Below are positions 42,311-60,752 of a stretch of 64,000 nucleotides of DNA, in pieces. The notes under the pieces were generated by a model that saw only the letters and a list, made by a program, of their open reading frames with translations, was not told the DNA's origin and ran no database searches. The DNA comes from Rhodocyclales bacterium (GTDB taxonomy: Bacteria > Pseudomonadota > Gammaproteobacteria > Burkholderiales > Rhodocyclaceae), in contig JACPUD010000057.1 in assembly GCA_016192435.1 (NCBI GenBank), positions 1 through 64,000 on the forward strand, read 5' to 3'. Both the position numbers and the translations under genes were made by a program. How positions within the stretch are numbered: the stretch's first letter is position 1; each line of letters opens with the position of its first letter.

Positions 42311-42353
42311 AGAATAGTCAAGACCACTGGCGGCGTCAGTGCGCTGGCGTACA
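42311..42353 (-). promoter_or_regulatory. Crp/Fnr-like palindrome with -10, upstream of BON lipoprotein
   Basis: On the minus strand TGTACGCCAGCGCACT (42338-42353) is centred 29.5 bp upstream of the first base of TATTCT (42311-42316). The centre is thus at -41.5 from the expected start point, giving a leader of about 120 nt. The 324-bp gap 42182-42505 otherwise holds only repeat copy 8. Confidence 0.65.
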
Positions 42354-42440
42354 TAGCGCAAGACAAGCGGATGCGCCGGCCAACGCAAGTGCAATAATTG
42401 CGGCTGCATCGGACATGGGAATCGCGGCCTGCGGCGCGAT

Positions 42441-42464
42441 CGCCGTCGCGCCAGCGCCAACTCT
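42441..42464 (-). repeat. Dispersed 24-bp repeat, copy 8 (intergenic)
   Basis: On the minus strand AGAGTTGGCGCTGGC, GCG, ACGGCG: a full consensus match. It lies 41 bp after the end of the DUF883 gene and 88 bp from the palindrome at 42338. Confidence 0.8.
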
Positions 42465-42505
42465 CTGGCCGGCCTGGCGCAGCAGGCGCGCGGCGGGAAG
42501 GCGGA

Positions 42506-42838
42506 TCAGCGACGGCTGAGTAGGACGAAGACGATGAGCGCGGCCACCGCGGGAATGCCAAATGCCTTCCATGGATTCTCCCTGACGTATTCCTGGGTGG
42601 CGTCGGCAGCGTCCGAGGCCTTTCTTGCGACCGCAATTCGCGCCGCATCGAGTCTCGATCTCGCATCCCGCAACTGGCCCTCGATCCGGGTCCGCGTCGC
42701 AGCGAATTCCTCCGCGGTCGAACTTACCACCTGCTGCAACAGGTCGTCGGTATCGGCGACAATGTCCTTGAGATCCCTGACGAGCCTGTCCTTCTTGATC
42801 TCGATGGCGCCGCGCTGTTCGAATAATGCCATATTCAT
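42506..42838 (-). CDS. DUF883 (ElaB/YqjD-like) membrane-anchored protein
   Basis: The 110-residue protein is a long amphipathic helix (KDRLVRDLKDIVADTDDLLQ, TRIEGQLRDARSRLDAARIA) followed by ENPWKAFGIPAVAALIVFVL, the C-terminal anchor typical of ElaB/YqjD/DUF883 proteins. These associate with ribosomes at the membrane in stationary phase. Palindromes at 42935 and 43008 lie upstream between this gene and the divergent BON lipoprotein. Confidence 0.85.
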   Translation of the reverse strand: MNMALFEQRGAIEIKKDRLVRDLKDIVADTDDLLQQVVSSTAEEFAATRTRIEGQLRDARSRLDAARIAVARKASDAADATQEYVRENPWKAFGIPAVAALIVFVLLSRR

Positions 42839-42934
42839 GATCTCTCCCGATGTTGACGGGTAGCAGCGGCGACCGGAGATTCGGGCGCCAACGCTCCCCT
42901 GACGCATAGCCTGATCCCTGCCTGTGCGCCGGTC

Positions 42935-42950
42935 TGTACGCCACCGCACG
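42935..42950. promoter_or_regulatory. Crp/Fnr-like palindrome in the DUF883/BON divergent region
   Basis: TGTACGCCACCGCACG matches TGTRCG-N4-CGCACA at all but the last base. No convincing -10 lies at 29.5 bp on either strand, so it may act as an upstream second site for the one at 43008 or serve the DUF883 gene. Confidence 0.45.
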
Positions 42951-43007
42951 ACGCGGACCCGGGACATTGAGCGAAGCGGCTGGAGCGGCGCCGCTCGACC
43001 ACGTCTA

Positions 43008-43050
43008 TGTGTTCCAGCGCACTGACTGGCACCGCCGCAAGGAGGATAAG
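43008..43050 (+). promoter_or_regulatory. Crp/Fnr-like palindrome with -10, upstream of BON lipoprotein gene at 43093
   Basis: TGTGTTCCAGCGCACT (43008-43023) is centred 29.5 bp before GATAAG (43045-43050). The left half-site is imperfect. The predicted start point near 43057 leaves a leader of about 36 nt containing AAGGAAA. Confidence 0.5.
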
Positions 43051-43092
43051 TACACCCTGTGGTTCGATCGCTACCATCAAAAGGAAACCAAA

Positions 43093-43587
43093 ATGAAAAT
43101 CCCATCCCGCTTCAAATCAGTCGCCATTTCGATCCTGCTCGCAGCCGGGCTGGCTGCGTGCGACAAGCCCGGACCGGCGGAAACCGCCGGCAAGAAAATC
43201 GATCAGACGGCAGAGGCCGCCGGCAAGAAGCTCGACCAAACCGCCGAGGCCGCCGGTCGCAAGATCGAGCAAACCGCCGAAGCCGCCGGCAGGTCGATCG
43301 ACAATGCCAGCGACAAGCTCGGCGACAAGCTGGGCGAGCAAGGCATGAAAGCCGGCGTCGCCATCGACGACACCGAAATCACGGCAAAGGTCAAGGCGTC
43401 GATTTTTGCCGAGCCCGGTCTGAAGACGCTGCAGATCAGCGTCGACACCATCAAGGGCGTGGTGACACTGACCGGATCGGTCGATTCGCCCCAGAGCAGC
43501 GACAGGGCCAAGCAACTCGCAAGCGCGGTGGCCGGCGTCAGGCAGGTCGACAACCGGCTGGTGGCAAAGGCAGTCCCAGCCAACTAA
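43093..43587 (+). CDS. Lipoprotein with heptad-like repeats and a BON domain
   Basis: A 164-residue lipoprotein: signal ILLAAGLAAC (Cys23). Four tandem repeats of an 11-residue unit follow (consensus AEAAGKKLDQT, residues about 32-78), predicted as an extended amphipathic helix, and then a BON domain (DDTEITAKVKASIFAEPGL, ISVDTIKGVVTLTGSVDS). The repeat part resembles the small lipoprotein at 56671. It is followed by a terminator at 43693 and preceded by palindromic sites. Confidence 0.85.
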   Translation: MKIPSRFKSVAISILLAAGLAACDKPGPAETAGKKIDQTAEAAGKKLDQTAEAAGRKIEQTAEAAGRSIDNASDKLGDKLGEQGMKAGVAIDDTEITAKVKASIFAEPGLKTLQISVDTIKGVVTLTGSVDSPQSSDRAKQLASAVAGVRQVDNRLVAKAVPAN

Positions 43588-43692
43588 GCGAAGCGTTGCA
43601 AGGTGCGACAAGGCACAGATCGAATCGGCAAAACCAGGCATTCTGCACTCAGGTATTCGTTGCCTCCTCCGCAGCCAACCCCTGCAGTATTT

Positions 43693-43726
43693 GGCCCGCA
43701 ACAGCGACGCTGCTGCGGGCCTTTTT
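43693..43726 (+). terminator. Intrinsic terminator of the BON lipoprotein gene
   Basis: GGCCCGC pairs with GCGGGCC, with an inner AGCG-ACGCT stem, followed by TTTTTCTTT. It separates the BON gene from the next promoter at 43758. Confidence 0.85.
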
Positions 43727-43757
43727 CTTTCCAGCCGCCCCCGGTTTCCTGCTGCAG

Positions 43758-43800
43758 TGAGCGCCAGCGCACGGACCGCCGCCGGCTTCGCGACTAGCCT
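43758..43800 (+). promoter_or_regulatory. Crp/Fnr-like palindrome with -10, upstream of csbD-like gene
   Basis: TGAGCGCCAGCGCACG (43758-43773) is centred exactly 29.5 bp before TAGCCT (43795-43800), the same hexamer and spacing as at 53486. The predicted start is about 60 nt before the GTG at 43868. Confidence 0.65.
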
Positions 43801-43867
43801 GATCGACGGTGGGCGCTGCCAGGCGGCAACGCCCACCCTTCTCAATTTCAATCACCAGGAGCACACC

Positions 43868-44044
43868 GTGAACAAGGATCAAACCAAGGGCCGCGTCGAG
43901 GAAGTCAAAGGCAAGGTAAAGGAGATTGCCGGCAAGCTGAGCGGCGACAAGAAACTGGAAGACGAAGGCAAGCTGCAAAACCTCAAAGGTCGGGTACAGG
44001 CCGGCTTTGGCGATCTGAAGGAAGACATCAAGAAAGCCGTCTGA
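43868..44044 (+). CDS. CsbD-family stress protein
   Basis: The 58-residue protein starts at GTG 43868 (AGGAG seven bases upstream) with NKDQTKGRVEEVKGKVKEIA and ends GFGDLKEDIKKAV, the standard CsbD pattern. CsbD proteins are small, highly charged and abundant under general stress; the molecular role is unknown. The BON gene at 44161 follows after 116 bp with no promoter-like palindrome, so they may share a transcript. Confidence 0.92.
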   Translation: MNKDQTKGRVEEVKGKVKEIAGKLSGDKKLEDEGKLQNLKGRVQAGFGDLKEDIKKAV

Positions 44045-44160
44045 GACCAACGGAGCCTCACATCCCTGGCAGTCGTGCCGCCCATTCAGCGGCCGACTGC
44101 AAGGGTCTGCCCGCGGATGAAGAGCTCCCGTCGGGCATTGCCTGCACGAAAGGAAACGCC

Positions 44161-44514
44161 ATGAAACGCATCCATCCGGCCGTAATTGCCGCCACGCTTG
44201 CCCTCGCCTGGGGCGCCCCGGCGCTCGCCGCCGACACCACCGCCCAGAACGCTGCCAAGCCTGCGGCGAGCAAGACGGCAGCCGTCGGCGAATACGTGGA
44301 CGACGCCGTCATCACCAGCAAGATCAAGACCGCGGTGTTCCAGGACTCTACGCTCAAGGCGACGGAGATCAATGTCGAAACCCACCAGGGAATTGTTCAG
44401 TTGACCGGCTTCGTCAAGTCGCGCGCCGATATCAACCAGGCCGTCAGGCTCGCCCGAGGCATCAAGGGCGTCAAATCCATCAAGAACGATATGCTCGTCA
44501 AGGGCCGGCAGTAA
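44161..44514 (+). CDS. Periplasmic BON-domain protein
   Basis: The 117-residue protein has a cleavable signal peptide ending APALAADT and one BON domain (DDAVITSKIKTAVFQDSTL, ATEINVETHQGIVQLTGFVK, ARGIKGVKSIKNDML). It lacks a lipobox, unlike its close paralogue at 41867. It is the third BON protein within 2.5 kb. AAAGGAAA precedes the ATG. Confidence 0.9.
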   Translation: MKRIHPAVIAATLALAWGAPALAADTTAQNAAKPAASKTAAVGEYVDDAVITSKIKTAVFQDSTLKATEINVETHQGIVQLTGFVKSRADINQAVRLARGIKGVKSIKNDMLVKGRQ

Positions 44515-44574
44515 GGCCTGGCGCAGGTCGACGGCTGCGCCAGATCCGGCCGACGGCCTGCAACGCCCTGCCGG

Positions 44575-44616
44575 TTGATGCGCATCAATCAAACTTGACT
44601 ATTTTTGTCGGATACT
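44575..44616 (+). promoter_or_regulatory. FNR/ANR box with -10, upstream of SDR gene
   Basis: TTGATGCGCATCAA (44575-44588) is a perfect TTGAT-N4-ATCAA FNR box. Its centre lies 29.5 bp before GATACT (44611-44616), i.e. at -41.5, the standard class II activation position. This predicts anaerobic induction of the SDR gene at 44662 and perhaps of the Usp gene after it. Confidence 0.75.
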
Positions 44617-44661
44617 TCCTGCCCGAGCATGTCGCCCGGAACAACTATGTCAGGACATGAA

Positions 44662-45414
44662 ATGCAGAAACGATTGGAAAACAAAGTAGCCGTTGTCACC
44701 GGTGCCAGTAGCGGAATTGGCCGCTCCATTGTCGAACACTATGTGGCGGAGGGCGCCAGCGTTGTTGCCTGTGCCCGAAATCTTGCTGCACTCGAGGAGT
44801 TGGCCAGCGCACATCCGGGCAAGGTGCTCGCCGTCGGCGGCGACGTGACCCGGGCAGCAGACCTGAAGCAACTCGTGGCGGAAACCGTCAAGGCCTATGG
44901 CGGCGTTGACATCGTGGTGCCCAACGCCGGCATCGCCCGCGTCGTTTCCTTCGAGGACAGCACGGCGGAAGCCTGCAACACCCAGTTTTCAGTGAACCTC
45001 TTCGGCGCCATCGAAACCGTGCGTCTGTTCCTGCCGCATATTCGCAAGGGCGGATCGGTTCAGTTCATCACGACCTTCCTCACCCAGGTCGGTTTCCCCG
45101 GACTATCGATCTACAGTGCCAGCAAGGCGGCGCTGAAATCCTTTTCCCAGACACTCGCCGCAGAACTTGCACCGAAAGGCATCCGGGTTAACTCGATTGC
45201 TCCGGGTCCGATCGGCACGCCGCTGTGGGGTACCGTAGGACTGCCCCCCGAGGTGCTGGCAGTTGTCGCCGGGAATGTGACCGCCCGCCTGCTGCCCGGT
45301 GCATTCGGCGGACCCGAAGACATCGCGCAAATGTCGGTATTCCTGGCATCGGACGCGGCCAAGAACATATTCGGCCAGGAAATCGTCATCGACGGCGGCT
45401 ATACGATCGGCTGA
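44662..45414 (+). CDS. Short-chain dehydrogenase/reductase (SDR)
   Basis: A 250-residue Rossmann-fold oxidoreductase with the NAD(P) loop VTGASSGIGRS, VPNAGIAR, the catalytic serine region (FITTFLTQVG) and the Tyr-x-x-x-Lys pair in IYSASKAALKSFSQ. SIAPGPIGTPLWG and a C-terminal IFGQEIVIDGGYTIG complete it. The active-site serine position reads Thr in FITTF, so this should be checked. Start 44662 has AGGA six bases upstream; ATG 44647 is possible. An FNR box precedes it. Confidence 0.88.
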   Translation: MQKRLENKVAVVTGASSGIGRSIVEHYVAEGASVVACARNLAALEELASAHPGKVLAVGGDVTRAADLKQLVAETVKAYGGVDIVVPNAGIARVVSFEDSTAEACNTQFSVNLFGAIETVRLFLPHIRKGGSVQFITTFLTQVGFPGLSIYSASKAALKSFSQTLAAELAPKGIRVNSIAPGPIGTPLWGTVGLPPEVLAVVAGNVTARLLPGAFGGPEDIAQMSVFLASDAAKNIFGQEIVIDGGYTIG

Positions 45415-45647
45415 AGGAGCTTCAAGGCTGCCGGCATTCATCGCCGGAGGACGTCGCGCAGCCGCAGACCGCCCGGATCACAGGCAGTCTGCGGTCAATC
45501 GCTGCGCGGTGACGGCCAGGCCCGCGGGATAGTGCTCAGGCGCGTTCGACAAGCAGGTAAGATCGACCCGCTGCAGCATCCTGGATCTGTGCAGGAAATG
45601 CGTTCTCCAGGTACCCAGCCCGTTTGTCACCAATAGGGAGAGTAGCC

Positions 45648-46040
45648 GTGACCATACTTGTAGCCTATGTACCGCGCCCGGAAGGGCAGGCCGCCCTGGA
45701 TAAGGGAATCGAAATTGCCGGTCGTCGCAAGGAAGCCCTGGTGGTGGTCAACACCAGTCGGGGCGGCAGCGGGGAAGATCCATCGATGGCCGATGTGCAG
45801 GATGTCGAGCGCGTCGAAAAATTGCTGATGGCTTCCGGCATCGACGCAACGTTCAAGCAGTTTGTTCGCGGCAAGAGCGCCATCGAGGAAATCGAGGAGA
45901 TGGTCGACTCGCTGCCGATTTCTCTTGTTGTCATCGGCCTGCGCAAACGCACACCGGTAGGCAAGCTTTTTCTGGGCAGCGTGGCCCAGGACATCCTGCT
46001 CAATGTTCCCTGCCCGGTCTTGGCGGTGAAGGCTGGCTGA
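45648..46040 (+). CDS. Universal stress protein (UspA family)
   Basis: A 130-residue single-domain protein: ILVAYVPRPEGQAALDKGIE, LVVVNTSRGG and the C-terminal VIGLRKRTPVGKLFLGSVAQDIL with NVPCPVLAVK. The ATP-binding G-2x-G-9x-G(S/T) motif is replaced by GLRKRTPVGKLFLGS, a subclass often found under anaerobic control. GTG 45648 has GGGAG seven bases upstream. The 233-bp gap before it shows no FNR or Crp-like site of its own. Confidence 0.85.
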   Translation: MTILVAYVPRPEGQAALDKGIEIAGRRKEALVVVNTSRGGSGEDPSMADVQDVERVEKLLMASGIDATFKQFVRGKSAIEEIEEMVDSLPISLVVIGLRKRTPVGKLFLGSVAQDILLNVPCPVLAVKAG

Positions 46041-46080
46041 CCGCTGTCTCCGGCATGGCCGCGCACCCGCCCGACGGCCA

Positions 46081-47484
46081 CTACATGCGCCACTCGACGT
46101 AGGAATAGATGTAGTTCGAGCCGCCGTTCACATTGCCGAGCAGGCGCGAGGTGCCGAAAATGCCCGAGCGGTGCGTGACGCCGAGGCCGACATAGGTTTC
46201 ACCCATGGACTTCACGCCGATCAGGTCGCCCAGGCTGATGTCGATGCTCGGATCGAGATAGTTGAGCAGCCGTGAACTGCTGCGGCCGCGCGCCAGCTGG
46301 TCGCGCAGTTCGACGTAGGGCACGCGTTCTGCATAGGAGATGCCGACGCCCATGCCGAGCCGGGTGCGCACGCGGTGGCTCCAGGGGAAGCCGTAGTAGT
46401 AGGCCTTCATGTAGGCATTGGCCTGCCAGGAATCTTCCTGCAAGCCGCGTTCGTTGTGCCGCAGCAGGCCGATGTAACCGACGAAATCGAGCGGCCAGCC
46501 GTTCAGGCGCTCGATGAAGGGGCGGCCCAGTTCGATGGCGGCGACCCGCGTCTGATCGACGGTGTTGGTCGAGGTGCATTTGAGCAGCATCACCTGGGCC
46601 ACGTCGCAATCGGTGGCCTTGCCGTACAGCGCCTTGACGATCAGCGGCCGGCCCTCGGGCCAGGCGTCGTGCTCGGGAGAAAAATCGTAGGCCAGGCCGA
46701 GGTGTCCGGCCAGTTGGGTGCGGCTGTCGACGATGGGACTGGCGCGCACGCCCGAGGCCCAGCGCGTCGCCGATACGCCGCCGATCAGCCGCCAGCGCGC
46801 GGAAAGCCGGTAGGCCGCGGACAGGGCCAGTTCGGCGTTGACGCCGCCTCCCGGTTCGTAGGCCGGGCGCGTGATGGTCGCTTCGGACGGCCGCACGCCG
46901 TAGTAGTAATTGTTGAGCCGGGCATCGCGTGCGGCGAGCGTGAATTGCGGCTGCACCTGCAGCTTGCCCAGCGCCAGGTCGTAGCGATAGCCGGCGCGGA
47001 TTTCGCTGCCGTCCGATCCGCTGCCCGCGTCGCTCAACAGTTCGCCGAACAGCGTGCCCCAGGAATAGCGCTGCTGATAGCCCAGCCCCAGGTCGACGCC
47101 CGGCCCGCGGTTGGCCATGCCGGCCAGGCTCGCGGGAATGCGGTCGTAGGGGTAGCCCTCGAAACGATAGGCGACAAACGCGTCGAAGCGCGAATCGGGA
47201 GTTTCCCTGAGTTTCAGGCCGACCCGGTAGGCTTCGAGAAAAACGCGCTTGCTCTCGTAGATGTAGATCGGAACAAAGTCGTGGCGCGTGCCCGCGCCGC
47301 TATAGATCGAGTTCTCGAAGCGCATGGCCATGCCGAGCCCGGCACCCCCGGTTGCGACGGGCATGGTTGCCGCGACGATCGGCTGATTGGCGGGCTCCAC
47401 CGCGGCGCCATGCGCCGGCAAGAGGCACAGGCACAAGGCCAGACCCGCCGTTGCCTGCAGTGAATAACCGGGACCAGAAATCAT
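46081..47484 (-). CDS. MipA/OmpV-like outer-membrane beta-barrel protein
   Basis: The 467-residue exported protein has a signal peptide ending AHGAAVE and then the alternating aromatic pattern of a beta-barrel (RFDAFVAYRFEGYPYDRIP, DLGLGYQQRYSWGTLFGELL). Its C-terminal strand ends YIYSYVEWRM. MipA-like proteins scaffold peptidoglycan enzymes or act as porins. ATG 47484 is placed eight bases after GGAG; GTG 47493 is possible. It is longer than typical MipA (about 250 residues), so it may be a distinct subfamily. Confidence 0.72.
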   Translation of the reverse strand: MISGPGYSLQATAGLALCLCLLPAHGAAVEPANQPIVAATMPVATGGAGLGMAMRFENSIYSGAGTRHDFVPIYIYESKRVFLEAYRVGLKLRETPDSRFDAFVAYRFEGYPYDRIPASLAGMANRGPGVDLGLGYQQRYSWGTLFGELLSDAGSGSDGSEIRAGYRYDLALGKLQVQPQFTLAARDARLNNYYYGVRPSEATITRPAYEPGGGVNAELALSAAYRLSARWRLIGGVSATRWASGVRASPIVDSRTQLAGHLGLAYDFSPEHDAWPEGRPLIVKALYGKATDCDVAQVMLLKCTSTNTVDQTRVAAIELGRPFIERLNGWPLDFVGYIGLLRHNERGLQEDSWQANAYMKAYYYGFPWSHRVRTRLGMGVGISYAERVPYVELRDQLARGRSSSRLLNYLDPSIDISLGDLIGVKSMGETYVGLGVTHRSGIFGTSRLLGNVNGGSNYIYSYVEWRM

Positions 47485-47560
47485 TGCACGCACTCCGCTT
47501 TCATTGCGGCGATTGCCGCCGCTGCGCCGAACGCCGCTGCAATCGGCGCCCGCCTAGTAA

Positions 47561-47566
47561 ATTATA
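47561..47566 (-). promoter_or_regulatory. Candidate -10 for the outer-membrane protein gene
   Basis: A perfect TATAAT on the minus strand about 77 bp before the start at 47484. No good -35 or palindrome is visible at the expected spacing. Confidence 0.35.
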
Positions 47567-47589
47567 TGCCCGGCTACGGCCAGCGCTGA

Positions 47590-48132
47590 CTACATGGCGC
47601 CGAGATCCGCAATCGCATCGACCACCATGCCCGTACCGATCGCGATCATCAATATGTCGCCGGCGACGCGCACATAGCGATGACCGGACGGCGGCGGGCC
47701 GATCTGCACCACCAGCGGCGCCGGGACGGAGTAATAGATCACGTCGCGCGGCAACTGGTAGCCGACCCGCCATTTCTTGGCCTGGCCCGGCGGCATGCAG
47801 CCGTTGTTCTTCTTCGCCAGTCCCGGCGGGCAGCCGCGCCCGCGGTAATGCTCGGCGTAATAGTCGCGCACCAGCACGTGCTGCTGCGGCTGAAAGTGGC
47901 GACGATCGCCATCCGAATGGCGGTCATTGTCCTGGCGCGAGTTGCGGTCGTCGTCCTTGCGGTCATCCTTGCGTTCGCCCTTGCGCTCGTCGCGCTGATC
48001 GCCGCGGTCGCTCTTGCCGCCCTTGTCGTTGCCGGCCCAGGCGGGCTTGTCGGCCAGCGCCGGGCCGGCCGCAAAAATTCCGGCAATAAGCAGCACCGTC
48101 GCGCATCTTGTTTTCAGAGCAGGTAGTTTCAT
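47590..48132 (-). CDS. RcnB-like periplasmic protein with charged linker
   Basis: The 180-residue protein has a signal peptide ending GPALADK and a very charged Asp/Arg/Lys stretch (about residues 36-80, RGDQRDERKGERKDDRK). A CPPGLAKKNNGCMPPGQAKK motif with two cysteines follows, then an RcnB-like C-terminal domain (GHRYVRVAGDILMIAIGTGMV). RcnB proteins modulate nickel/cobalt efflux in the periplasm; the linked efflux pump is not in the window. A palindromic site with -10 lies just upstream at 48180-48222. Confidence 0.75.
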   Translation of the reverse strand: MKLPALKTRCATVLLIAGIFAAGPALADKPAWAGNDKGGKSDRGDQRDERKGERKDDRKDDDRNSRQDNDRHSDGDRRHFQPQQHVLVRDYYAEHYRGRGCPPGLAKKNNGCMPPGQAKKWRVGYQLPRDVIYYSVPAPLVVQIGPPPSGHRYVRVAGDILMIAIGTGMVVDAIADLGAM

Positions 48133-48179
48133 GTTGGATCACCGTGTAGGGAATGCATTGAACAGCGAAAGTCAGATGC

Positions 48180-48222
48180 AACATAGCCGGCCCTGGAGAA
48201 AGCTTCTGTGCGATACCGTACA
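48180..48222 (-). promoter_or_regulatory. Crp/Fnr-like palindrome with -10, upstream of RcnB-like gene
   Basis: On the minus strand TGTACGGTATCGCACA (48207-48222) matches the consensus fully and is centred 29.5 bp before TATGTT (48180-48185). The expected start point is about 40 nt before the ATG at 48132. Confidence 0.75.
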
Positions 48223-48255
48223 TTGGCCAGCCGCAGCGTGCCGCGGGCGACAAGA

Positions 48256-49268: not shown

Positions 49269-49622
49269 CTAGCGACGGAAGGCGAAGTACCAGATGAAGA
49301 AGACGACCAGGATCAGCACCACCAGGCCATCGCCGCCGGCAGGAACGGCATTGATCTGGCCGGCGAGGCCGCGGACTTCCTCGTCGCTCATCGACGCGAC
49401 GCGATCCCGCGCATCCTGCGCATCCAGGCCCAGCGCCTGAAACTCGTTCACGGTCTGCGAGCGGCTCAGGTAACTCGATACCAGATTGCGGTCGGCCTGC
49501 ACCGTGGCGGCGGCAGTCACCTGCTCCGTACCGATCATGCTGGCCTGTCCGGTCTGGAAGGGCAGGGTTATGAGAGCAACGGCGAGAAAGCGGCAAAGCA
49601 GTTTCTTGAATGCGGAATTCAT
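49269..49622 (-). CDS. PA2779-family small membrane protein
   Basis: The 117-residue protein has a signal peptide ending TGQASM, a helical region with SRSQTVNEFQALGLDAQDAR and a C-terminal transmembrane anchor (DGLVVLILVVFFIWYFAF). ATG 49622 lies six bases after AGGAG; a second ATG sits too close to it. It is always paired with the PA2778-like peptidase and is its likely partner or substrate. A perfect palindromic site is 95 bp upstream. Confidence 0.85.
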   Translation of the reverse strand: MNSAFKKLLCRFLAVALITLPFQTGQASMIGTEQVTAAATVQADRNLVSSYLSRSQTVNEFQALGLDAQDARDRVASMSDEEVRGLAGQINAVPAGGDGLVVLILVVFFIWYFAFRR

Positions 49623-49716: not shown

Positions 49717-49732
49717 TGTGCGCTGTCGCACA
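49717..49732 (-). promoter_or_regulatory. Perfect Crp/Fnr-like palindrome upstream of PA2779-PA2778
   Basis: TGTGCGCTGTCGCACA is a perfect dyad. At 29.5 bp on the minus strand the hexamer is only CAGAGT (three matches to TATAAT), so the promoter position is less certain than at other sites. Confidence 0.6.
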
Positions 49733-49853: not shown

Positions 49854-51269
49854 TCACGCCACGCGCAGTTTCGCCTGAACCTCGCGCAGCGCCGTGCGCA
49901 GTCCCTCTTCGACGACCGGATGATAGAAGGGCATCTCCAGCATCTGCGTCACGGTCATCTGGTTCTGCAGCGCCCAGGCCAACAGATGCGCCAGATGCTC
50001 GGCGGCCGGCACCAGCATTTCCGCGCCCAGGAAATCACCCGTGGCGGGATCGGCATAGATGTTGAGCAGGCCCTGGTTCTTCAGCATGATGCGCGAACGG
50101 CCCTGGTCCTGGAAACTTGCCTGGCCGGTCACAAAGCTGCCGGCTTCGAGCAAATGAAAACCGCCGCCGACGATGGCGATCTGCGGATCGGTGAACACGA
50201 TGCCGATCGGTACGCGGCGCTGGACCGGGGTCACCAGGCTGCCCAGCGCGACGCGCGCGGCATTGCGTCCGGCAATGCGCCCTTCGTCGGCCGCCTCGTG
50301 CAGCAGCGGAATGAAATTATTGGCGTCGCCGGCGATGAAGATCGGGCTGGCTCCGCTTGCGCTCAGCGTGCGGGTGGTCAGGGGATCGAAGGTCGGTATT
50401 CCTTTATCGTCGAGCCTGATGCCGGTCTGGTCCAGGCCGATGTCCGACACATTGGGGGCACGCCCGGTGGCGGCGAGGACATAGTCGAAATGTTCGACGG
50501 CCACCTTGCCGTCCGCCCCCTTGCGTCGAAGCGCGACGCGATCGCCTTCGCGTTCCATGGACTCGACATGGGCGTCGGGCTCCAGTGTGAATTCCCGGTT
50601 GAAGGCCGCCACCGCGTAACTCAGAATCTCCGGATCGCTGAGGGGACCGACGCGACCGCCGCGGCCGAGCACCGCAACCCGGACACCCAGGCGGTGCAGG
50701 GCCTGGCCGAGTTCCAGCCCGACGATTCCCGGACCCATCACGGCCACCGATCTGGGCAGGTCGCGCCAGTTGAAAACGTCGTCGCTGATGATCAGGCGCT
50801 CGCCCAGGGATTTGAACGTATCCGGGTAGGTGGCGCGCGAACCGGTGGCGATGACGCTGCTCTTGCACCGGATCAGGGTGTGATCCGCCACGGCTATCGT
50901 GTGGTCGTCCCGGAACACGGCGCGGCCGAGCAGGCGATCCGTCCCGGGAATATCCTGCACATCGCTCAGCACGAAGCCGACAAAACGGTCGCGCTCGCGC
51001 CTGACCCGCTCCATCACCGCGCCGCCATCGATGCGCACCACGCCATCGACATGAATGCCGAAGCCCGGCGCCTTGCCCACCGCGTCGGCGGCCTCGGCCG
51101 CGGCGATCAGCAGCTTGCTCGGCATGCAACCGACCCGCGCGCAGGTGGTGCCGTAGTCGCCGCCCTCGATGATGACGACGCTCGCGCCGGCGGCCTTGGC
51201 CGAACGATAGGCGGCCAGGCCGGCCGTACCGGCACCGATGATTGCGACGTCGACCTGCAGAGTTTGCAT
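49854..51269 (-). CDS. Dihydrolipoyl dehydrogenase-like FAD disulfide oxidoreductase
   Basis: A 471-residue flavoprotein with the FAD loop AIIGAGTAGLAAYRSA and a redox-active disulfide in CARVGCMPSK. The NAD-binding loop AVMGPGIVGLELGQAL, the second FAD motif PIFIAGDANN and a C-terminal FYHPVVEEGLRTAL with the His-Glu acid/base pair complete it. The C-x4-C spacing is standard. It resembles the dihydrolipoamide dehydrogenases not encoded with 2-oxoacid complexes, so the electron acceptor is unknown. A small frame lies immediately upstream. Confidence 0.88.
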   Translation of the reverse strand: MQTLQVDVAIIGAGTAGLAAYRSAKAAGASVVIIEGGDYGTTCARVGCMPSKLLIAAAEAADAVGKAPGFGIHVDGVVRIDGGAVMERVRRERDRFVGFVLSDVQDIPGTDRLLGRAVFRDDHTIAVADHTLIRCKSSVIATGSRATYPDTFKSLGERLIISDDVFNWRDLPRSVAVMGPGIVGLELGQALHRLGVRVAVLGRGGRVGPLSDPEILSYAVAAFNREFTLEPDAHVESMEREGDRVALRRKGADGKVAVEHFDYVLAATGRAPNVSDIGLDQTGIRLDDKGIPTFDPLTTRTLSASGASPIFIAGDANNFIPLLHEAADEGRIAGRNAARVALGSLVTPVQRRVPIGIVFTDPQIAIVGGGFHLLEAGSFVTGQASFQDQGRSRIMLKNQGLLNIYADPATGDFLGAEMLVPAAEHLAHLLAWALQNQMTVTQMLEMPFYHPVVEEGLRTALREVQAKLRVA

Positions 51270-51272
51270 GAT

Positions 51273-51434
51273 TCAGCCCTCCCGGCGCGCATCAGGCGCC
51301 GCAAGATAAGTTTCGAGTTCGTCGGCGCCGCCGATCAGCCTGCGGATCAATGTCGCCGACCGTCGTGTCGCCTTGTTCAGGGTTTTTCCTTCGAGGCCCT
51401 GGGCCGTGGCCAGACTCGGTAGGCTGGGTAGCAT
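51273..51434 (-). CDS. 53-residue small frame upstream of the dehydrogenase gene
   Basis: An ATG-started frame (MLPSLPSLATAQGLEGKTLN) with a basic middle (KATRRSATLIRRLIGG) whose stop lies four bases before the ATG of the next gene. The Shine-Dalgarno for that gene (GGGAGG) is inside its last codons, so the pair would be coupled. No family is recognised; a chance frame is possible. Confidence 0.4.
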   Translation of the reverse strand: MLPSLPSLATAQGLEGKTLNKATRRSATLIRRLIGGADELETYLAAPDARREG

Positions 51435-51547: not shown

Positions 51548-51563
51548 TGTACGCCAGCGCACA
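51548..51563 (+). promoter_or_regulatory. Crp/Fnr-like palindrome upstream of MlaC-like gene
   Basis: TGTACGCCAGCGCACA is a full consensus match, 100 bp before the gene at 51663. A -10-like GAAAAT sits at 51584-51589, one base closer than the usual 29.5 bp. The rest of the gap 51435-51662 shows nothing else I can name. Confidence 0.6.
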
Positions 51564-52477: not shown

Positions 52478-52493
52478 TGTGTGCCAGCGCACA
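52478..52493. promoter_or_regulatory. Crp/Fnr-like palindrome between convergent genes
   Basis: TGTGTGCCAGCGCACA lies only eight bases from the end of the minus-strand gene at 52501 and 51 bases after the plus-strand MlaC-like gene. No -10 fits on either strand. Its place between two gene ends is unlike the other sites. Confidence 0.4.
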
Positions 52494-53485: not shown

Positions 53486-53528
53486 TGTGGCTCACCGCAC
53501 AGACAGCGCCGTGACCGAAGCCTAGCCT
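53486..53528 (+). promoter_or_regulatory. Crp/Fnr-like palindrome with -10 for a possibly leaderless gene
   Basis: TGTGGCTCACCGCACA (53486-53501) is centred 29.5 bp before TAGCCT (53523-53528). Seven bases after this hexamer comes the ATG at 53535, so the predicted start point coincides with the start codon. The site also lies upstream of the divergent gene ending at 52501. Confidence 0.65.
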
Positions 53529-53534: not shown

Positions 53535-54008
53535 ATGAAATCGGCGTCCATCAATGTCGGCATACTGTGCATCGCCCTGGGAACCGCCCTGGCCTGGGCC
53601 GAGGTCACGCAATACCCGGACGCCGCGCCTGAATCCGCATCCGCCGCGGTCATCCTCGAGCAGCCAGGCCCGGTCGTGGCTCCGGCGCCGGTTGCCAGAA
53701 TATTGGAGCCGCCGCTGGACGTGGCGGCCTTGAAGACGCGACTGCGGGAAACCCGCGCGATCGGCGCATTTGCCAAGCTCGCACTGAGCAATCAGATGGA
53801 TGACCTGGTGCAGGAGTTTCGCTCGCTTCACCTGGGCGGACAGAGCAACAACGTCACCAAGCTGCGGCAGCGCTATGACCTGCTGGTGCTCAAGGTGCTC
53901 GCCCTGATCCAGGACGGCGATCCACCCCTGGCGCGCACCATCGCCGGGTCGCGCGAGGCAATCTGGACCATTCTTGCCGATCCGGAACAGTTCAAGTCAG
54001 TCGGCTAA
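53535..54008 (+). CDS. Hypothetical exported protein
   Basis: A 157-residue protein with a signal peptide (MKSASINVGILCIALGTALA), a Pro/Ala linker (about residues 26-60) and a helical C-terminal domain with RETRAIGAFAKLALSNQMDD and LRQRYDLLVLKVLALIQDGD. No family is recognised. The promoter places the start point on the ATG, so the mRNA may be leaderless; there is no Shine-Dalgarno. It is followed after 19 bp by a second small exported protein. Confidence 0.65.
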   Translation: MKSASINVGILCIALGTALAWAEVTQYPDAAPESASAAVILEQPGPVVAPAPVARILEPPLDVAALKTRLRETRAIGAFAKLALSNQMDDLVQEFRSLHLGGQSNNVTKLRQRYDLLVLKVLALIQDGDPPLARTIAGSREAIWTILADPEQFKSVG

Positions 54009-54533: not shown

Positions 54534-54559
54534 AAAAAGACAGGCGAACCTGTCTTTTT
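54534..54559 (-). terminator. Intrinsic terminator of the Ala/Lys-rich protein gene
   Basis: AAAAAGACAGG and CCTGTCTTTTT form an 11-bp stem around CGAA, followed on the minus strand by a run of eight T. It lies 20 bases after the stop at 54579. Confidence 0.9.
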
Positions 54560-54578
54560 CCTGCGGCAGCGCCCGCAA

Positions 54579-55007: not shown

Positions 55008-55150
55008 GGAATTCCTTAAATGAGATGGGGTCGGCCGCAGCTTGCGACCTGGGACTTTGTCGGTCCCTAAGCGATAAACGCCGCACTATCGAATCGGTTG
55101 ACGCAGCAAGTGAAAAACCGGCTCGCGAGCCCGCACTGCCTGCGCACAGG

Positions 55151-56557: not shown

Positions 56558-56670
56558 GCAATCCTCCGTTGGTAGCTCGCCACCGCAGCAGTCACGCGCG
56601 AACCGCGCCAATGCATGCGCTGCCGCGCGGAATGCCCTGCGCCGCAGATATCGTGGTCGCGCTGCAGAAC

Positions 56671-56862
56671 CTACTTCTTGCCGCCCTTGGCCGCGTCCTG
56701 GATGTTCTCGCCGGCCTTTTCGATCGACTTGCCGACATCCGACACAACCTTGTCGGCTTCCTTGCCGGCGCGCTCGGCCGGTCCTTCCTTTTCGCACGCG
56801 GCGAGTACGAACGCCATCGCGCCCGCGACCAGAACCGCACTGATAATCTTGCCGAATTTCAT
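56671..56862 (-). CDS. Small lipoprotein with amphipathic helix
   Basis: A 63-residue lipoprotein with signal LVAGAMAFVLAAC (Cys23) and a helical, Lys/Glu/Ala-rich mature part (AERAGKEADKVVSDVGKSIE) that resembles the repeat region of the BON lipoprotein at 43093. AGGAG precedes the ATG at nine bases. It is probably a structural envelope component; function unknown. Confidence 0.8.
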   Translation of the reverse strand: MKFGKIISAVLVAGAMAFVLAACEKEGPAERAGKEADKVVSDVGKSIEKAGENIQDAAKGGKK

Positions 56863-56983
56863 GAATTCTGACTCCTGGTGATTCGTCCGAAAACAAGCGC
56901 GAGCTTGCGGTCGCACTGGCTTTCGATCTGAAATGCGGATGCGCCAGGCCGCTTGCGAAACCGGCCGGGCCGCACGGACAGGC

Positions 56984-57199
56984 TTACTTGCCGACTTCGT
57001 GACCGATGACGCCGCCGACCGCAGCACCGCCGACCGTGCCGATTGCGCTGCCGCCCGTTAGAACGGAACCGCCGATCGCACCGACGCCAGCGCCGATCGC
57101 CGTACTCTTTTCCTGGGCCGACATGCCGGCACAACCAACCAGACCGACCAGCATGGCCGCGGCAACTGCACTCATTGTGATGCTCTTGATCGTTTTCAT
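56984..57199 (-). CDS. Glycine-zipper lipoprotein (OsmB/SlyB-like)
   Basis: A 71-residue lipoprotein with signal AAAMLVGLVGC (Cys23) and a glycine-zipper hairpin (AIGAGVGAIGGSVLTGGSAI, TVGGAAVGGVIGHEVGK). This is the two-transmembrane glycine-zipper fold of osmotically induced lipoproteins such as OsmB. Such proteins multimerise in the outer membrane. It starts after a strong AGGAGG. Confidence 0.87.
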   Translation of the reverse strand: MKTIKSITMSAVAAAMLVGLVGCAGMSAQEKSTAIGAGVGAIGGSVLTGGSAIGTVGGAAVGGVIGHEVGK

Positions 57200-57255
57200 G
57201 GGATTACCTCCTTGTGAAACAGTGGGCTTGCATGGGTGTTTCTATCGACGTCGAC

Positions 57256-57834
57256 TCAGGTCTTGCCGAAGTTCTTCCTGGCTTGTGCCAGGCAATGATC
57301 CTTTGCCTCGCTGGCATAGGCATCGCACTTTTCCTTGGCGACACCGTATTGCGCATCATTGGCGGTTGCTGCGGCAGCCGCGCGCGCCTTCGCTGCCTTG
57401 CCGCGGGCTTCCGCGTTGGCGTCCGAGACCTTCATCTGCGCCTTGGCATCGGCCTTGGCGGTGGTCTGCACGGCCTTGGCTTCCTTGACACAAACATCCT
57501 TGGCCGTGCCGCCCTTGTCGTCGCAGCGTTCCTTGGCTATCGAATAGGCGGCCTCGGCCGCGACCACGCCTGCCTTGTAGCGGCTGCCTGCGGATGGCTT
57601 GTAGCTGGCCTCGAGGTCGGCCTTGGTGATCTTCTCGCGGCCCCTGGCTTCGGCGACGCAGATATCCCGGGCGTTGCCGGAAAAGGAATTGCAGGCGGCC
57701 TTCTCGGCCTTGTACTGGCCTTCGATCTGCTTCTTGCCGGCCTTGTAGTCGTCCTTTGCCATGCTCTGCGCCATGGCGCCGGCACTGAAGGCCAGGCCGA
57801 CTGCGAGCGCCAGCACGCTGCTGTACTTGTTCAT
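57256..57834 (-). CDS. Exported protein with three paired-cysteine repeats
   Basis: The 192-residue protein has a signal peptide ending SAGAMAQ and three related modules with a pair of cysteines spaced 9-10 residues apart: ACNSFSGNARDICVAEAR, CDDKGGTAKDVCVKEAK and CDAYASEAKDHCLAQAR. An Ala/Lys-rich spacer separates the last two. The cysteine pairs probably form disulfides in the periplasm. No named family comes to mind. It follows the OmpA-like gene after a strong hairpin. Confidence 0.75.
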   Translation of the reverse strand: MNKYSSVLALAVGLAFSAGAMAQSMAKDDYKAGKKQIEGQYKAEKAACNSFSGNARDICVAEARGREKITKADLEASYKPSAGSRYKAGVVAAEAAYSIAKERCDDKGGTAKDVCVKEAKAVQTTAKADAKAQMKVSDANAEARGKAAKARAAAAATANDAQYGVAKEKCDAYASEAKDHCLAQARKNFGKT

Positions 57835-57863
57835 TTCGCTTCCTTCGTGGGATAAGACCGGAA

Positions 57864-57894
57864 AGCGGTTGCGGCAGCTCCTGCCGCAACCGCT
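57864..57894 (-). terminator. Strong hairpin between the OmpA-like gene and the cysteine-repeat gene
   Basis: AGCGGTTGCGGCAG and CTGCCGCAACCGCT form a 14-bp perfect stem with a CTC loop. No T-run follows on either strand, so it may be an mRNA-stabilising or processing hairpin and not a true terminator. Confidence 0.5.
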
Positions 57895-57905
57895 CCGAAT
57901 GGTGG

Positions 57906-58592
57906 CTACTTGCGGGTGCCGATCACTTCGATTTCAACGCGGCGATCGGGTTGCAGGCAGGCGATCACCTTGGCGCTCTTGGGGCCCTTGCATTCATCGG
58001 CCTTGGTCACCGGCTGCATTTCGCCCTTGCCTTCGGTGTAGATGCGGTTGTCGGCGATGCCCTTGCCCATCAGATAGGTCTTCACCGCCATGGCGCGTCG
58101 CTCGGACAGGTTCTGGTTGTATTTGTCGGAGCCGAAGCGGTCGGCGTGGCCGACGGCGGTGATCACTTCCGGATTGATGTCGCGGGTCTTGTTGTAGAAG
58201 TCGTCCAGTGCGTCGCGTCCGGCCGGACGCAGCACCGCCTTGTCGAAGTCGAACAGCGCATCGGCATTCAGCTTGACGCGGTCGGCGGCCGGCTTCGGCG
58301 CCGGCGGCGGGGCCACCGCGGCGAGCTTTTGCGGCGCCGGCGCGGGAGCCGCGGCGACGGGCTTCTTCACCAGGTCGGGATCGCATTCCTCGATCGCCAG
58401 CGCCGGCGTCCAGTAGCCGGTGTGCCAGCACAGACCGTAGCCGCTCTTGACCACCTCGCCGCGCGTGTCGACCAGATAGCCTTCCTTGGTCGGATTGTTG
58501 CTTTGCGCACTTGCCGCGCCCGCCGTCAGGCCCAGGGCCAGGACGCAGGATATGGCCACCGCCATCTGTTTTTTGTTCAATGCATAGGTCAT
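57906..58592 (-). CDS. OmpA-family outer-membrane protein
   Basis: A 228-residue exported protein: signal peptide ending AASAQSN, then a short region with CWHTGYWTPALAIEEC (two cysteines), a Pro/Ala linker and a C-terminal OmpA domain that binds peptidoglycan. That domain has FDFDKAVLRPAGRDALDDF, ITAVGHADRFGSDKYNQNLS and PDRRVEIEVIGTRK. It lacks the eight-stranded barrel of true OmpA, so it is of the short OmpA/Pal-like class. The palindrome at 58795 with its -10 would give a leader of about 170 nt. Confidence 0.9.
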   Translation of the reverse strand: MTYALNKKQMAVAISCVLALGLTAGAASAQSNNPTKEGYLVDTRGEVVKSGYGLCWHTGYWTPALAIEECDPDLVKKPVAAAPAPAPQKLAAVAPPPAPKPAADRVKLNADALFDFDKAVLRPAGRDALDDFYNKTRDINPEVITAVGHADRFGSDKYNQNLSERRAMAVKTYLMGKGIADNRIYTEGKGEMQPVTKADECKGPKSAKVIACLQPDRRVEIEVIGTRK

Positions 58593-58767
58593 GATGATTT
58601 CCGATCCATAAATGTTGCGTCAGTTTCCGCCTGGTGCTGCCTTGATTCTTCCGACCGTCCGCAAAGCGGAGAAATGCCGACAGTCGCTGCTGATTCTTCT
58701 CAACCGGTCCGCTGACACGCGATGTTCAAGTCATCGTGCGAACTGCCATGTACCGATCAATGCGCCC

Positions 58768-58810
58768 ATCATCTGCCGCTTGCCGCACCCGGTCTGTACG
58801 TTGTCGCACA
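58768..58810 (-). promoter_or_regulatory. Crp/Fnr-like palindrome with -10, upstream of OmpA-like gene
   Basis: On the minus strand TGTGCGACAACGTACA (58795-58810) is a full consensus match. It is centred 29.5 bp before GATGAT (58768-58773). The 420-bp gap 58593-59012 otherwise holds only repeat copy 10. Confidence 0.6.
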
Positions 58811-58851
58811 CAGCGTGCAATTCGTCCGCAAGCTGCTGCGTGAAGGGGTCG

Positions 58852-58875
58852 CACCGTAGCGCCAGCGCCAACTAT
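58852..58875 (-). repeat. Dispersed 24-bp repeat, copy 10 (intergenic)
   Basis: On the minus strand ATAGTTGGCGCTGGC, GCT, ACGGTG: one mismatch. It is 42 bp from the palindrome at 58795. Confidence 0.75.
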
Positions 58876-59012
58876 CGCTCGATGCCGCCCGCATAGTCGG
58901 CGCGGGGCGTCGGGCATGGGGGCGTACCGCAGGGCCGCCTTCAGTCCGCCATCCACCCCTGGCCGGCTGCAGCCGGCACTGCCGAGGCTTGGCCGGCCTC
59001 TGCGGCAAGGCG

Positions 59013-59162
59013 TCAGAGCAGCTTGCGCCCGCTGATGATTCTGAGCAGCACCACGACGACGGCAATCACGATCAGGATATGGATGAAGCCCCCCAGCGTG
59101 TAGGAGGTGACCAGGCCGAGCAGCCACAGGATGATGAGTACGACGGCGATTGTGTATAGCAT
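59013..59162 (-). CDS. Lmo0937-family small membrane protein
   Basis: A 49-residue protein with two hydrophobic helices (MLYTIAVVLIILWLLGLVTS and GGFIHILIVIAVVVVLLRII) and a basic tail, the pattern of lmo0937/YtxH-like membrane proteins that are strongly stress-induced in many bacteria. AGAGG lies six bases before the ATG. It follows the glycine-zipper protein gene at 59238 by 75 bp. Confidence 0.85.
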   Translation of the reverse strand: MLYTIAVVLIILWLLGLVTSYTLGGFIHILIVIAVVVVLLRIISGRKLL

Positions 59163-59237
59163 TTGGAGCCTCTTTTCTGGACAGTTCAGGTGCAGGACTG
59201 CCGGCGACTGCTTGAGCAAGTGGCCGCCGGCATGCGC

Positions 59238-60323
59238 TTACTGGAGGACGGTCAGCGTGCTGCCGTCGACCTTGACCTTGGCGCCGACCGCGAAGGGCGG
59301 TTGTGCGGCGTAGGTGAGGGTCTGGGTGCCGCCGTTCTCGAGCCGCACCACCACTTCGTAGTGCTTGGTGGTCTTGACCCGCTTTTCGATTTCGTTGCCG
59401 ACGTAGGCGCCGCCTACACCGCCGGCCACCTGGGCCACCGTGGTGGTGCTGCCGTCGCCGATCTGGCTGCCGATCACGATGCCGGCCAAACCGCCGGCGA
59501 TCTTGCCGAGATAGCTGCCTTCGCCCTTGACCTCGACCAGGTTGATCGCCTCGATCACGCCGCAATCGACGCAGCGCGCGACCTGCCGGGCGCGCGGCGC
59601 CTGGCTGCTCGCAGCCACAAGCGACTGGCCCAGCACGGCGCTGGTTTCCCGCTCGCCGACGCGCAGATGTGCGGTCACCACCGAATTGGCCGCGATGCGG
59701 TCGCGGCGCTTGATGATGTGGGTGCCTTCGTATACGCCGTTGCGGATTTCGTTGAGCAGGATCTTGCCCTTGACGCCGACTATTGTCGCGCTGGCAACCC
59801 CGCCCGGAGTGCCGGACAGAATCAGGTTCAGGTCTTCGCCCGGAACCAGGCTGGGCGGAGGATTGCCCACGTCGAAGCGATCGATCTTCGGCCCGCTGGC
59901 GTAGCGTTGCCCGGCGCCGGCCCGCCTGGCATAGGCGCGGCCGATCAGCGGCTCGTCGAGGATGGCGCTGGCGACCTGGTTGCCCACCCGCAGATTGGCG
60001 GTGGCCTTGCTCGTGGCCGTGATCTTGTCGCGCTGGCGAATGGTGTAGCTGCCTTCGTAGACGCCGGCTTCGGTTTCCACCAGCACCAGGCCGGCCGTTG
60101 CGCCGCCGATGCGTACCGCCGCGGTGCCGCCGGGGCTGCCGTAGAGGGTGAAGTCCAGTTCCCTGCCGGCGACCGCCTGCCGTACCGGCCGGACGTCGAA
60201 ACCATCGATCCGGGTGGCTTCGGCGCGCGACGCCGCATGCTGGGCCTGGGCTTGACTGGCGACGAAGGGCAGCGGCAGCAATGCGGCCAGGGCGAACAAT
60301 CCGAGAACAATTCTTTTGTACAT
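59238..60323 (-). CDS. Exported protein: two tandem beta domains plus glycine zipper
   Basis: The 361-residue protein has a signal peptide ending ASQAQAQH and two copies of an approximately 95-residue domain. Each copy has an F-D-V start, GxPGG, GVYEGSYTIRQRDKI and RVGNQVASAIL (residues about 38-130 and 146-240). A SlyB-like region with CVDCGVIEAINLVEV and the glycine zipper YLGKIAGGLAGIVIG follows. The beta domains look Ig-like. It may anchor in the outer membrane through the zipper. It lies nine bases after the CsbD-like gene. Confidence 0.8.
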   Translation of the reverse strand: MYKRIVLGLFALAALLPLPFVASQAQAQHAASRAEATRIDGFDVRPVRQAVAGRELDFTLYGSPGGTAAVRIGGATAGLVLVETEAGVYEGSYTIRQRDKITATSKATANLRVGNQVASAILDEPLIGRAYARRAGAGQRYASGPKIDRFDVGNPPPSLVPGEDLNLILSGTPGGVASATIVGVKGKILLNEIRNGVYEGTHIIKRRDRIAANSVVTAHLRVGERETSAVLGQSLVAASSQAPRARQVARCVDCGVIEAINLVEVKGEGSYLGKIAGGLAGIVIGSQIGDGSTTTVAQVAGGVGGAYVGNEIEKRVKTTKHYEVVVRLENGGTQTLTYAAQPPFAVGAKVKVDGSTLTVLQ

Positions 60324-60332
60324 TTTTGACTC

Positions 60333-60545
60333 CTAGAAATACCAGTTACGGTGTTGGTCGTGAAAATCCTTCAACTGGCGGTCGGCCTGTTCGCGCTCGA
60401 TGCCATTGTCCTGCTGCGCCTTGCCGCTGAGCTGCTGGCGCCTGCCGAGCGCTTCCTGCCGTGTATCCCCGGTCCATCCGCCCCAGGTCTGCTTCACTTT
60501 TCCAGCCAGTTGCAGGCAGATGCCGACAAATTGTTCCTTGTTCAT
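60333..60545 (-). CDS. CsbD-family stress protein (second copy)
   Basis: A 70-residue charged protein (MNKEQFVGICLQLAGKVKQT, then TRQEALGRRQQLSGKAQQ) that matches the CsbD pattern with the central GKAQ stretch. The C-terminus DFHDQHRNWYF is unusual. It is the first gene of the unit with the glycine-zipper and Lmo0937-like genes. The palindrome at 60662 lies 117 bp upstream on this strand. Confidence 0.85.
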   Translation of the reverse strand: MNKEQFVGICLQLAGKVKQTWGGWTGDTRQEALGRRQQLSGKAQQDNGIEREQADRQLKDFHDQHRNWYF

Positions 60546-60634
60546 TTCAGGCTCCATGATGGAAGCAGCGGTGCAAGTAGCGGCGATCAGCGCGGTGGCG
60601 ACGACGCCATGACAAGCGGCACTCGCATGGACTC

Positions 60635-60677
60635 ATCTTCGGCCTTGCCAGCGGCTCCTTCTGTGCGCCAGCGCACG
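60635..60677. promoter_or_regulatory. Crp/Fnr-like palindrome in the CsbD/Gly-rich divergent region
   Basis: TGTGCGCCAGCGCACG (60662-60677) matches the consensus but for the last base. On the minus strand a weak GAAGAT (60635-60640) sits at 29.5 bp, suiting the CsbD-like gene. The 311-bp gap 60546-60856 holds this site and the one at 60710. Confidence 0.5.
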
Positions 60678-60709
60678 ATCAAGCTCGGGCCGGAGCAAAT
60701 GCGCCCTTG

Positions 60710-60752
60710 TGTACGACAGCGCACGGAATGCCTTGCGCCGCCGCCCTACGAT
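60710..60752 (+). promoter_or_regulatory. Crp/Fnr-like palindrome with -10, upstream of Gly-rich lipoprotein gene
   Basis: TGTACGACAGCGCACG (60710-60725) is centred 29.5 bp before TACGAT (60747-60752). The expected leader is about 98 nt to the ATG at 60857 and contains AAAGGAG. Confidence 0.65.

Follow-up and report, generated by a model that had tools for sequence, protein, structure and literature searches.

A repeated dyad with class II promoter geometry in a Rhodocyclales envelope-stress gene island and its candidate Crp/Fnr-family regulator

In Escherichia coli, class II promoters activated by CRP carry a 5-6-5 dimer site centred at -41.5, a -10 element whose distance from the site centre is 29.5 bp, and no good -35 element. 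FNR, Anr, DNR and FixK-type regulators, which have TTGAT half-sites and other sensors, share the fold and the class II geometry, and GlxR of Corynebacterium binds cyclic AMP (cAMP) and TGTGA-type sites. The initial annotation of a 64,000-bp stretch from a Rhodocyclales bacterium (positions 1 to 64,000 of contig JACPUD010000057.1, assembly GCA_016192435.1; hereafter the window) described a repeated dyad of this layout, TGTRCG-N4-CGCACA, in an island of stress genes. When the window and the remainder of the 84,071-bp contig were analysed, with a matrix scan spanning contig positions 1 to 80,000, the refined site was found to be longer, TCTGTRCG-N4-CGYACAGA, and a candidate regulator of the Crp/Fnr family, P0001, was located just outside the window.

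The Crp/Fnr family and class II geometry are already known. The arrangement at this locus shares with the CRP promoters the 5-6-5 site at -41.5, the -10 spacing and the lack of a good -35 element, but the half-site is TGTRC(G) rather than TGTGA, the effector pocket of the regulator lacks the cAMP-contact arginine, and the regulator gene shares an operon with genes for a histidine kinase and a receiver-PAS protein. It differs from the FNR and FixK-type systems in half-site and sensor, the N-terminal part of P0001 being free of cysteines. The Cycloclasticus regulators DPR-1 and DPR-2 (242 and 238 amino acids) are CRP/FNR proteins that, in the passages available, are described as responding to cyclic di-GMP rather than cAMP (PMC8547461). 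They differ in their targets, which are genes for aromatic degradation, and those passages give no binding motif (PMC8547461). The available part of PMC12531629 treats the Crp/Fnr family at large without this motif, and in that of PMC4505428 the motif letters are present only in a primer. No account of the operator, operon or regulon was found in an open-licence paper library, for which some queries were weakly worded.

The dyad is very probably the operator of P0001, which would most likely act on the island and on its own operon as a class II activator. Its sequence, the fixed 29.5-bp spacing, its intergenic position, its co-occurrence with one Crp subfamily and its frequent occurrence ahead of that subfamily's own genes were all computed directly. 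In a first set of 41 sites from named relatives, unseen in the initial annotation, the score for a TATAAT-like hexamer is highest at a distance of exactly 29.5 bp from the centre of the dyad (z score 6.2, next highest 1.4), where 16 matches exceed 4 bits against a mean of 1.5 per offset; the neighbouring offset of 28.5 bp has 7. A second set of 41 further sites, which with two exceptions were selected as lying in regulator-bearing genomes or near a regulator, peaks again at 29.5 bp (z score 5.6, next highest 1.8), with 16 matches above 4 bits against a mean of 1.1 per offset and 4 at the next-highest offset. The dyad centre is thus at -41.5 from the predicted start points, as for a class II activator, and the class II layout first proposed from the window alone extends to other species. 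A sigma-S signature (C at -13) was also sought and rejected, the frequency of C being 0.27 with no sign of enrichment; the -10 letters in that table were score-selected and only the flanks are informative.

Within the order, the excess of the motif follows this Crp subfamily, also inside taxonomic families. Among 200 genomes sampled from the order, the 65 with a homologue of P0001 at E <= 2e-40 (own genome included) contain 154 sites against 59 for the control. This contrast is large in the 31 other genomes whose homologue has at least 65% identity (106 against 31) and not significant in the remaining homologue genomes below 65% (42 against 28, p 0.17), whereas 14 genomes with weak matches have 13 sites against 25 and 121 genomes with no match have 53 against 85. 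At least three sites are found in 22 of 64 homologue genomes (own excluded) and in 4 of 121 without a match (p 2e-8), with control counts alike between the two groups (p 0.15). Across 28 taxonomic families, the motif contrast is up in 24, down in 2 and equal in 2 (permutation p 5e-5).

Sites are also frequent beside the homologues themselves. Of 62 regions upstream of homologues with at least 56% identity, 39 hold a total of 50 sites of at least 12 bits, against a chance expectation of 0.3 of 60 regions, and the dyads seen most often in these regions when no motif was assumed beforehand are TATGT-10-ACATA, GTGCG-4-CGCAC and TGTGC-6-GCACA. The best 80 of 315 loci of relatives (1.19 Mb; the named relatives among them include Methylotenera, Nitrosomonas, Rhodoferax, Sulfuritalea and further Rhodocyclales) contain 42 strict motifs, spread over 30 of the loci, and 0 copies of the reversed control. 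A prior-free list of dyads from these 80 loci places TGTGCG-4-CGCACA seventh among 6-mers by number of loci. None of the six dyads ranked higher lies within the regulator gene, and they look like conserved coding sequence of the receiver and kinase genes, since they lie at medians of about 810 and 1835 bp upstream, where those genes are.

In three genomes outside the order (G400, G328 and, with 39% identity, G332) the centre of a perfect site lies some 80-110 bp upstream of the matched start of a homologue. Eighteen genomes of other classes, with homologues of 35-44% identity, contain 30 sites against 24 for the control; among them, five genomes of genus g184 (G405, G349, G332, G337 and G226; homologues of 37-39% identity) have 22 strict motifs against 7 for the control, and the operator may therefore predate the order.

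On the contig itself, sites were scored with a matrix trained on 40 sites of other species, with a main threshold of at least 12 bits. Eleven copies had been counted between 42.3 and 60.7 kb, seven of them given by position, but the set is larger: 13 sites reach the threshold there, namely the seven for which a -10 hexamer had been given and those at 42935, 43602, 49717, 51548, 52478 and 60662. All seven site and -10 pairs are correctly placed, with the hexamer 29.5 bp from the dyad centre and each directed towards the downstream gene. Three further sites of at least 12 bits (69228, 70327 and 77776) lie past the window end, at 69-78 kb, and the stated absence of sites from 0-42 kb was borne out, with none of at least 12 bits and nine matches of 4.0-7.7 bits. 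The sites are given below with strand, matrix score, -10 hexamer and downstream gene.

42338 to 42353, minus strand: 22.6 bits; -10 hexamer TATTCT at 29.5 bp, predicted start 42304; BON gene 41867-42181 (Pfam BON)
42935 to 42950, minus strand: 14.4 bits; poor -10 hexamer CAGGCT (-0.5 bits); DUF883 gene 42506-42838 (Pfam DUF883_C)
43008 to 43023, plus strand: 12.5 bits; -10 hexamer GATAAG (0.6 bits); BON lipoprotein gene 43093-43587
43602 to 43617, plus strand: 13.3 bits; -10 hexamer CATTCT; CsbD gene 43868-44044, with a leader of 217 bp
43758 to 43773, plus strand: 12.0 bits; -10 hexamer TAGCCT; the same CsbD gene, 43868-44044
48207 to 48222, minus strand: 24.8 bits; -10 hexamer TATGTT; RcnB-like gene 47590-48132 (Pfam RcnB)
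49717 to 49732, minus strand: 29.2 bits; -10 hexamer CAGAGT; DUF6627 gene 49269-49622, then a C39-peptidase/TPR gene
51548 to 51563, minus strand: 24.7 bits; -10 hexamer TAGATT; small open reading frame 51273-51434, then a pyridine-nucleotide disulphide oxidoreductase gene 49854-51269
52478 to 52493, no strand assigned: 12.4 bits; no -10 hexamer at 29.5 bp in either direction
53486 to 53501, plus strand: 16.8 bits; -10 hexamer TAGCCT; exported-protein gene 53535-54008, without a Pfam family
58795 to 58810, minus strand: 26.1 bits; -10 hexamer GATGAT; OmpA-family gene 57906-58592 (Pfam OmpA)
60662 to 60677, minus strand: 17.9 bits; -10 hexamer GAAGAT; CsbD-like gene 60333-60545 and glycine-zipper gene 59238-60323
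60710 to 60725, plus strand: 20.7 bits; -10 hexamer TACGAT; glycine-rich lipoprotein gene 60857-61828, without a Pfam family
69228 to 69243 of the contig: 27.6 bits; weak -10 hexamer CACCAT; upstream of the regulator operon
70327 to 70342 of the contig: 15.4 bits; -10 hexamer CATTGT; ahead of an M48-peptidase gene
77776 to 77791 of the contig: 17.6 bits; no -10 hexamer; ahead of a CAP-domain gene

When the better strand is taken, a hexamer scoring more than 0.5 bits stands at 29.5 bp in 13 of these 16 sites, compared with an average of 1.3 sites per offset (z score 5.6), and the promoters have no separate -35 element, the dyad filling that place. At site 53486, the predicted start (53535) coincides with the called start codon. 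A gene list made for this analysis, with an intergenic share of 16.5% in that stretch, places all 15 sites below 70.5 kb between genes. Between 42 and 70 kb, 14 sites reach at least 10 bits, compared with a mean of 0.4 (maximum 2 in 100) in Markov sequences. In the own genome (3.52 Mb in 148 contigs, 83% complete), this contig holds 10 of the 17 sites with at most one mismatch and 5 of the 6 perfect ones.

The Pfam profile for the Crp-type helix-turn-helix domain returned 11 matches in the own genome, nine of them above the cut-off and one of these matches on this contig. It had been stated that no matching regulator gene lies in the window, and this is right: the gene for P0001, a 247-amino-acid Crp/Fnr protein (contig 64236-64979, minus strand), has its near end 236 bp past the window end, and supplies the candidate that the initial annotation had proposed to search for. 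It is overlapped by a receiver-PAS gene (64963-65817, minus strand), which is overlapped in turn by the gene for a 1052-amino-acid CHASE3/PAS hybrid histidine kinase (65814-68972, minus strand). No second match of the regulator's kind is present in the own genome at E 1e-3. The C terminus of P0001 matches the Crp-type winged helix-turn-helix (PF13545, 53.6 bits, cut-off 27), and the N terminus a cyclic-nucleotide-binding-type beta-roll with a long helix (PF00027, 29.6 bits, cut-off 27.5). An AlphaFold2 model of an orthologue (predicted local distance difference test score 72) matched CRP/FNR structures in Foldseek with E 9e-12 and template modelling scores, by query length, of 0.37-0.47 among the matches listed, which suggests with modest confidence that the orthologue folds like CRP/FNR proteins. 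Among the 80 loci, a receiver protein is found near the regulator in 77, with all 45 listed positions 844-989 bp upstream on the same strand. Kinases resembling that of the operon occur in 75 loci, where any strong match was counted and other kinases are perhaps included.

Two observations concern the surroundings of the regulator gene. Downstream of it there is another hybrid kinase, which by eye closely resembles that of the operon and is preceded by a short CheB-methylesterase stretch covering 75 of 174 profile positions; the region (window 61875-63638 and contig 63635-64105) looks like a truncated CheB-kinase. Several other genomes (e.g. G136:C52, G145:C66 and G465:C22) have two or more neighbouring regulator copies, in which one copy is closer (57-75% identity) and one has about 40-48% identity.

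The best sequence match of P0001 with a solved structure is GlxR (4cyd/4byy; E 9e-5), and the two were compared in an alignment, alongside a family alignment of 81 sequences. The recognition helix keeps the Arg-Glu of GlxR at its start but carries a glutamate (E188) where GlxR has lysine, and this position is Glu or Asp in 74 of 81 family members. In CRP, Arg185 is at the corresponding place and reads the far end of TGTGA. An acidic residue at 188 would fit the C at that operator position. In the pocket, the phosphate-contacting Arg of GlxR is opposite a Thr and its Glu is opposite an alignment gap; Thr90 and Thr91 are conserved in 79 and 80 of 81 sequences. C142, H146, H205, C219 and C221 are invariant in the 81 sequences and H145 and C153 nearly so, and because of this invariance a metal, haem or thiol site, and with it redox or metal sensing, is at most a reasonable guess. 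These Cys and His residues sit outside the usual FNR positions.

The genes preceded by sites in the own genome comprise two BON genes, DUF883, two CsbD genes, an RcnB-like gene, DUF6627 with the C39-peptidase/TPR gene, the pyridine-nucleotide disulphide oxidoreductase, OmpA, glycine-zipper and glycine-rich lipoprotein genes, the M48 peptidase and the signalling operon, and, off this contig, AsmA on contig C101. In other species, 33 genes downstream of sites with a fitting -10 element, hand-picked from 59 rows because their gene calls seemed the most likely, include BON (5), collagen-like (3), OmpA (2), Ysc84 (2), glycine-zipper (2) and kinase (2) genes, two Crp-like regulators, both from regions fetched for a site near the regulator, and single genes for RcnB, CsbD, DUF3185, DUF3309, PRC and others. 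BON, OmpA, CsbD and RcnB are among the families that recur in both. The stress-gene island is a recurrent arrangement, because BON and OmpA genes cluster round the regulators and sites cluster at regulator copies: around the 80 regulators, three BON queries match in 36, 31 and 35 loci and OmpA in 19, compared with 1 and 0 loci for two housekeeping control genes, and in genome G168 (one contig) 8 of 10 sites lie within 36 kb around several regulator copies.

In the mechanism proposed here, a P0001 dimer would bind TCTGTRCG-N4-CGYACAGA at -41.5, in place of a -35 element, and would activate sigma-70-type promoters of the envelope and stress-gene island in class II fashion. It would also activate the operon that encodes it, and the histidine kinase and receiver-PAS protein made from that operon may pass a signal to the Crp protein. 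Activation rather than repression is favoured because of the exact 29.5-bp phase, and control of the Crp protein by the kinase and receiver-PAS protein because the operon is conserved. It is conceivable, if doubtful, that this locus represents a stress switch widespread among Betaproteobacteria. A two-component relay from the CHASE3/PAS hybrid kinase to the receiver-PAS protein would then have as its DNA-binding output a Crp protein that makes no use of cAMP, possibly with redox or metal input through its invariant Cys and His residues, and this protein would drive a portable envelope-stress island by the class II route. To our knowledge, the control of BON, CsbD, OmpA-like and glycine-zipper genes, which are common in environmental Betaproteobacteria, is rarely known. 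The analysis would place these genes under a single operator, a single candidate regulator and a single signalling operon, with starts predicted to the base, and the predictions are open to testing in cultured relatives. The Crp/Fnr family would also gain a new DNA-binding specificity, with an acidic candidate specificity residue in the recognition helix.

Several results weigh against this interpretation. Three of the 16 own sites have no usable -10 element at 29.5 bp (none at 52478 and 77776, a poor one at 42935), and at 43008 and 69228 the element barely passes. A strict site is missing from the flank examined in 50 of the 80 loci. Sixteen homologue-bearing genomes outside the order show no genome-wide excess (18 sites against 23 for the control), nor do three more genomes of the order (5 against 10). 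The genome-wide enrichment that the initial annotation had proposed to look for is absent overall from the own genome, where sites with at most one mismatch number 17 and matches to the reversed control 26. The comparison with shuffled sequence of equal composition went in the expected direction, but marginally: in the window, TGTRCG-N4-CGCACA with at most two mismatches occurs 32 times compared with 20.2 (standard deviation 6.3) in shuffles, 6 of 100 of which match or exceed it, and TGTGC-N6-GCACA with at most one mismatch 8 times compared with 3.3, matched or exceeded by 4 of 100. Such crude counts were therefore dropped as proof, which is comparative. Finally, a -10 element that scores above 2.3 bits at the 29.5-bp spacing faces the regulator at 13 of the 50 sites upstream of regulators and points the other way at 12, so that self-control of the regulator genes may be partly repression, or partly due to a site of the neighbouring gene.

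It is accordingly worth considering that the site belongs to P0001 but that the protein is mainly a repressor or has a dual role, the fixed spacing reflecting occlusion of the promoter. A dimer at -41.5 can block RNA polymerase too, and 37 of the 50 sites upstream of regulators have no good -10 element at 29.5 bp towards the regulator, but the dyad occupies the place of a separate -35 element and the exact phase is demanded by polymerase contact and needless for a repressor, which makes this reading unlikely. Binding by another protein, such as a different Crp/Fnr paralogue, is quite improbable: eight other Crp-type helix-turn-helix proteins exceed the Pfam cut-off in the own genome, but none is encoded on this contig, and the operon partners of P0001, the kinase and the receiver-PAS protein, have no DNA-binding domain in Pfam. 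The one paralogue of the eight that was searched (L019) matches 185 of 200 genomes, far beyond those with a motif excess, yet misses the motif-rich genomes G151 and G161. Used to partition the genomes for co-occurrence, it was useless, with matches in 185 of 200; the presence of a Crp/Fnr protein as such does not predict the motif.

The 5-6-5 layout and Crp fold would also suit a variant of a canonical cAMP-CRP or FNR/DNR site. A TGTGA-N6-TCACA operator was not recovered, however, as the prior-free lists near and upstream of the regulators give GTGCG/CGCAC and TGTGC/GCACA; nor are the cAMP-contact features of GlxR present, its phosphate Arg facing a conserved Thr, or the 4Fe-4S cysteine cluster of FNR, the first Cys of P0001 being residue 142. 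Such a canonical identity is very improbable. That the dyads are chance or compositional palindromes, or transcribed hairpins or terminators, is scarcely credible: the marginal window counts and the lack of an overall excess in the own genome would agree with it, but not the 42 against 0 in the loci, the 39 of 60 against 0.3 upstream of homologues, the -10 phase at 29.5 bp, or the 15 of 15 intergenic positions. Activation of the island by P0001 from the -41.5 position is thus retained as the preferred explanation.

A further repeated element lies near some of the sites. The 14-mer CGCCAGCGCCAACT occurs in 276 copies (132 and 144) in the 3.52-Mb genome, its reversed control in 0, and is a dispersed single-unit repeat; as it is dispersed over the whole genome, it was ruled out as a part of the operator. 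Copies are located at 17100 (minus), 42449 (plus), 49799 (plus) and 58860 (plus) of the window and at 73302 and 80223 (minus) of the contig. Ten copies suggest a longer repeat unit, CGCCGTnnCGCCAGCGCCAACTCT. The repeat is also present in two loci of close relatives (L029 and L030) and in L088, with 5 copies in the 80 loci.

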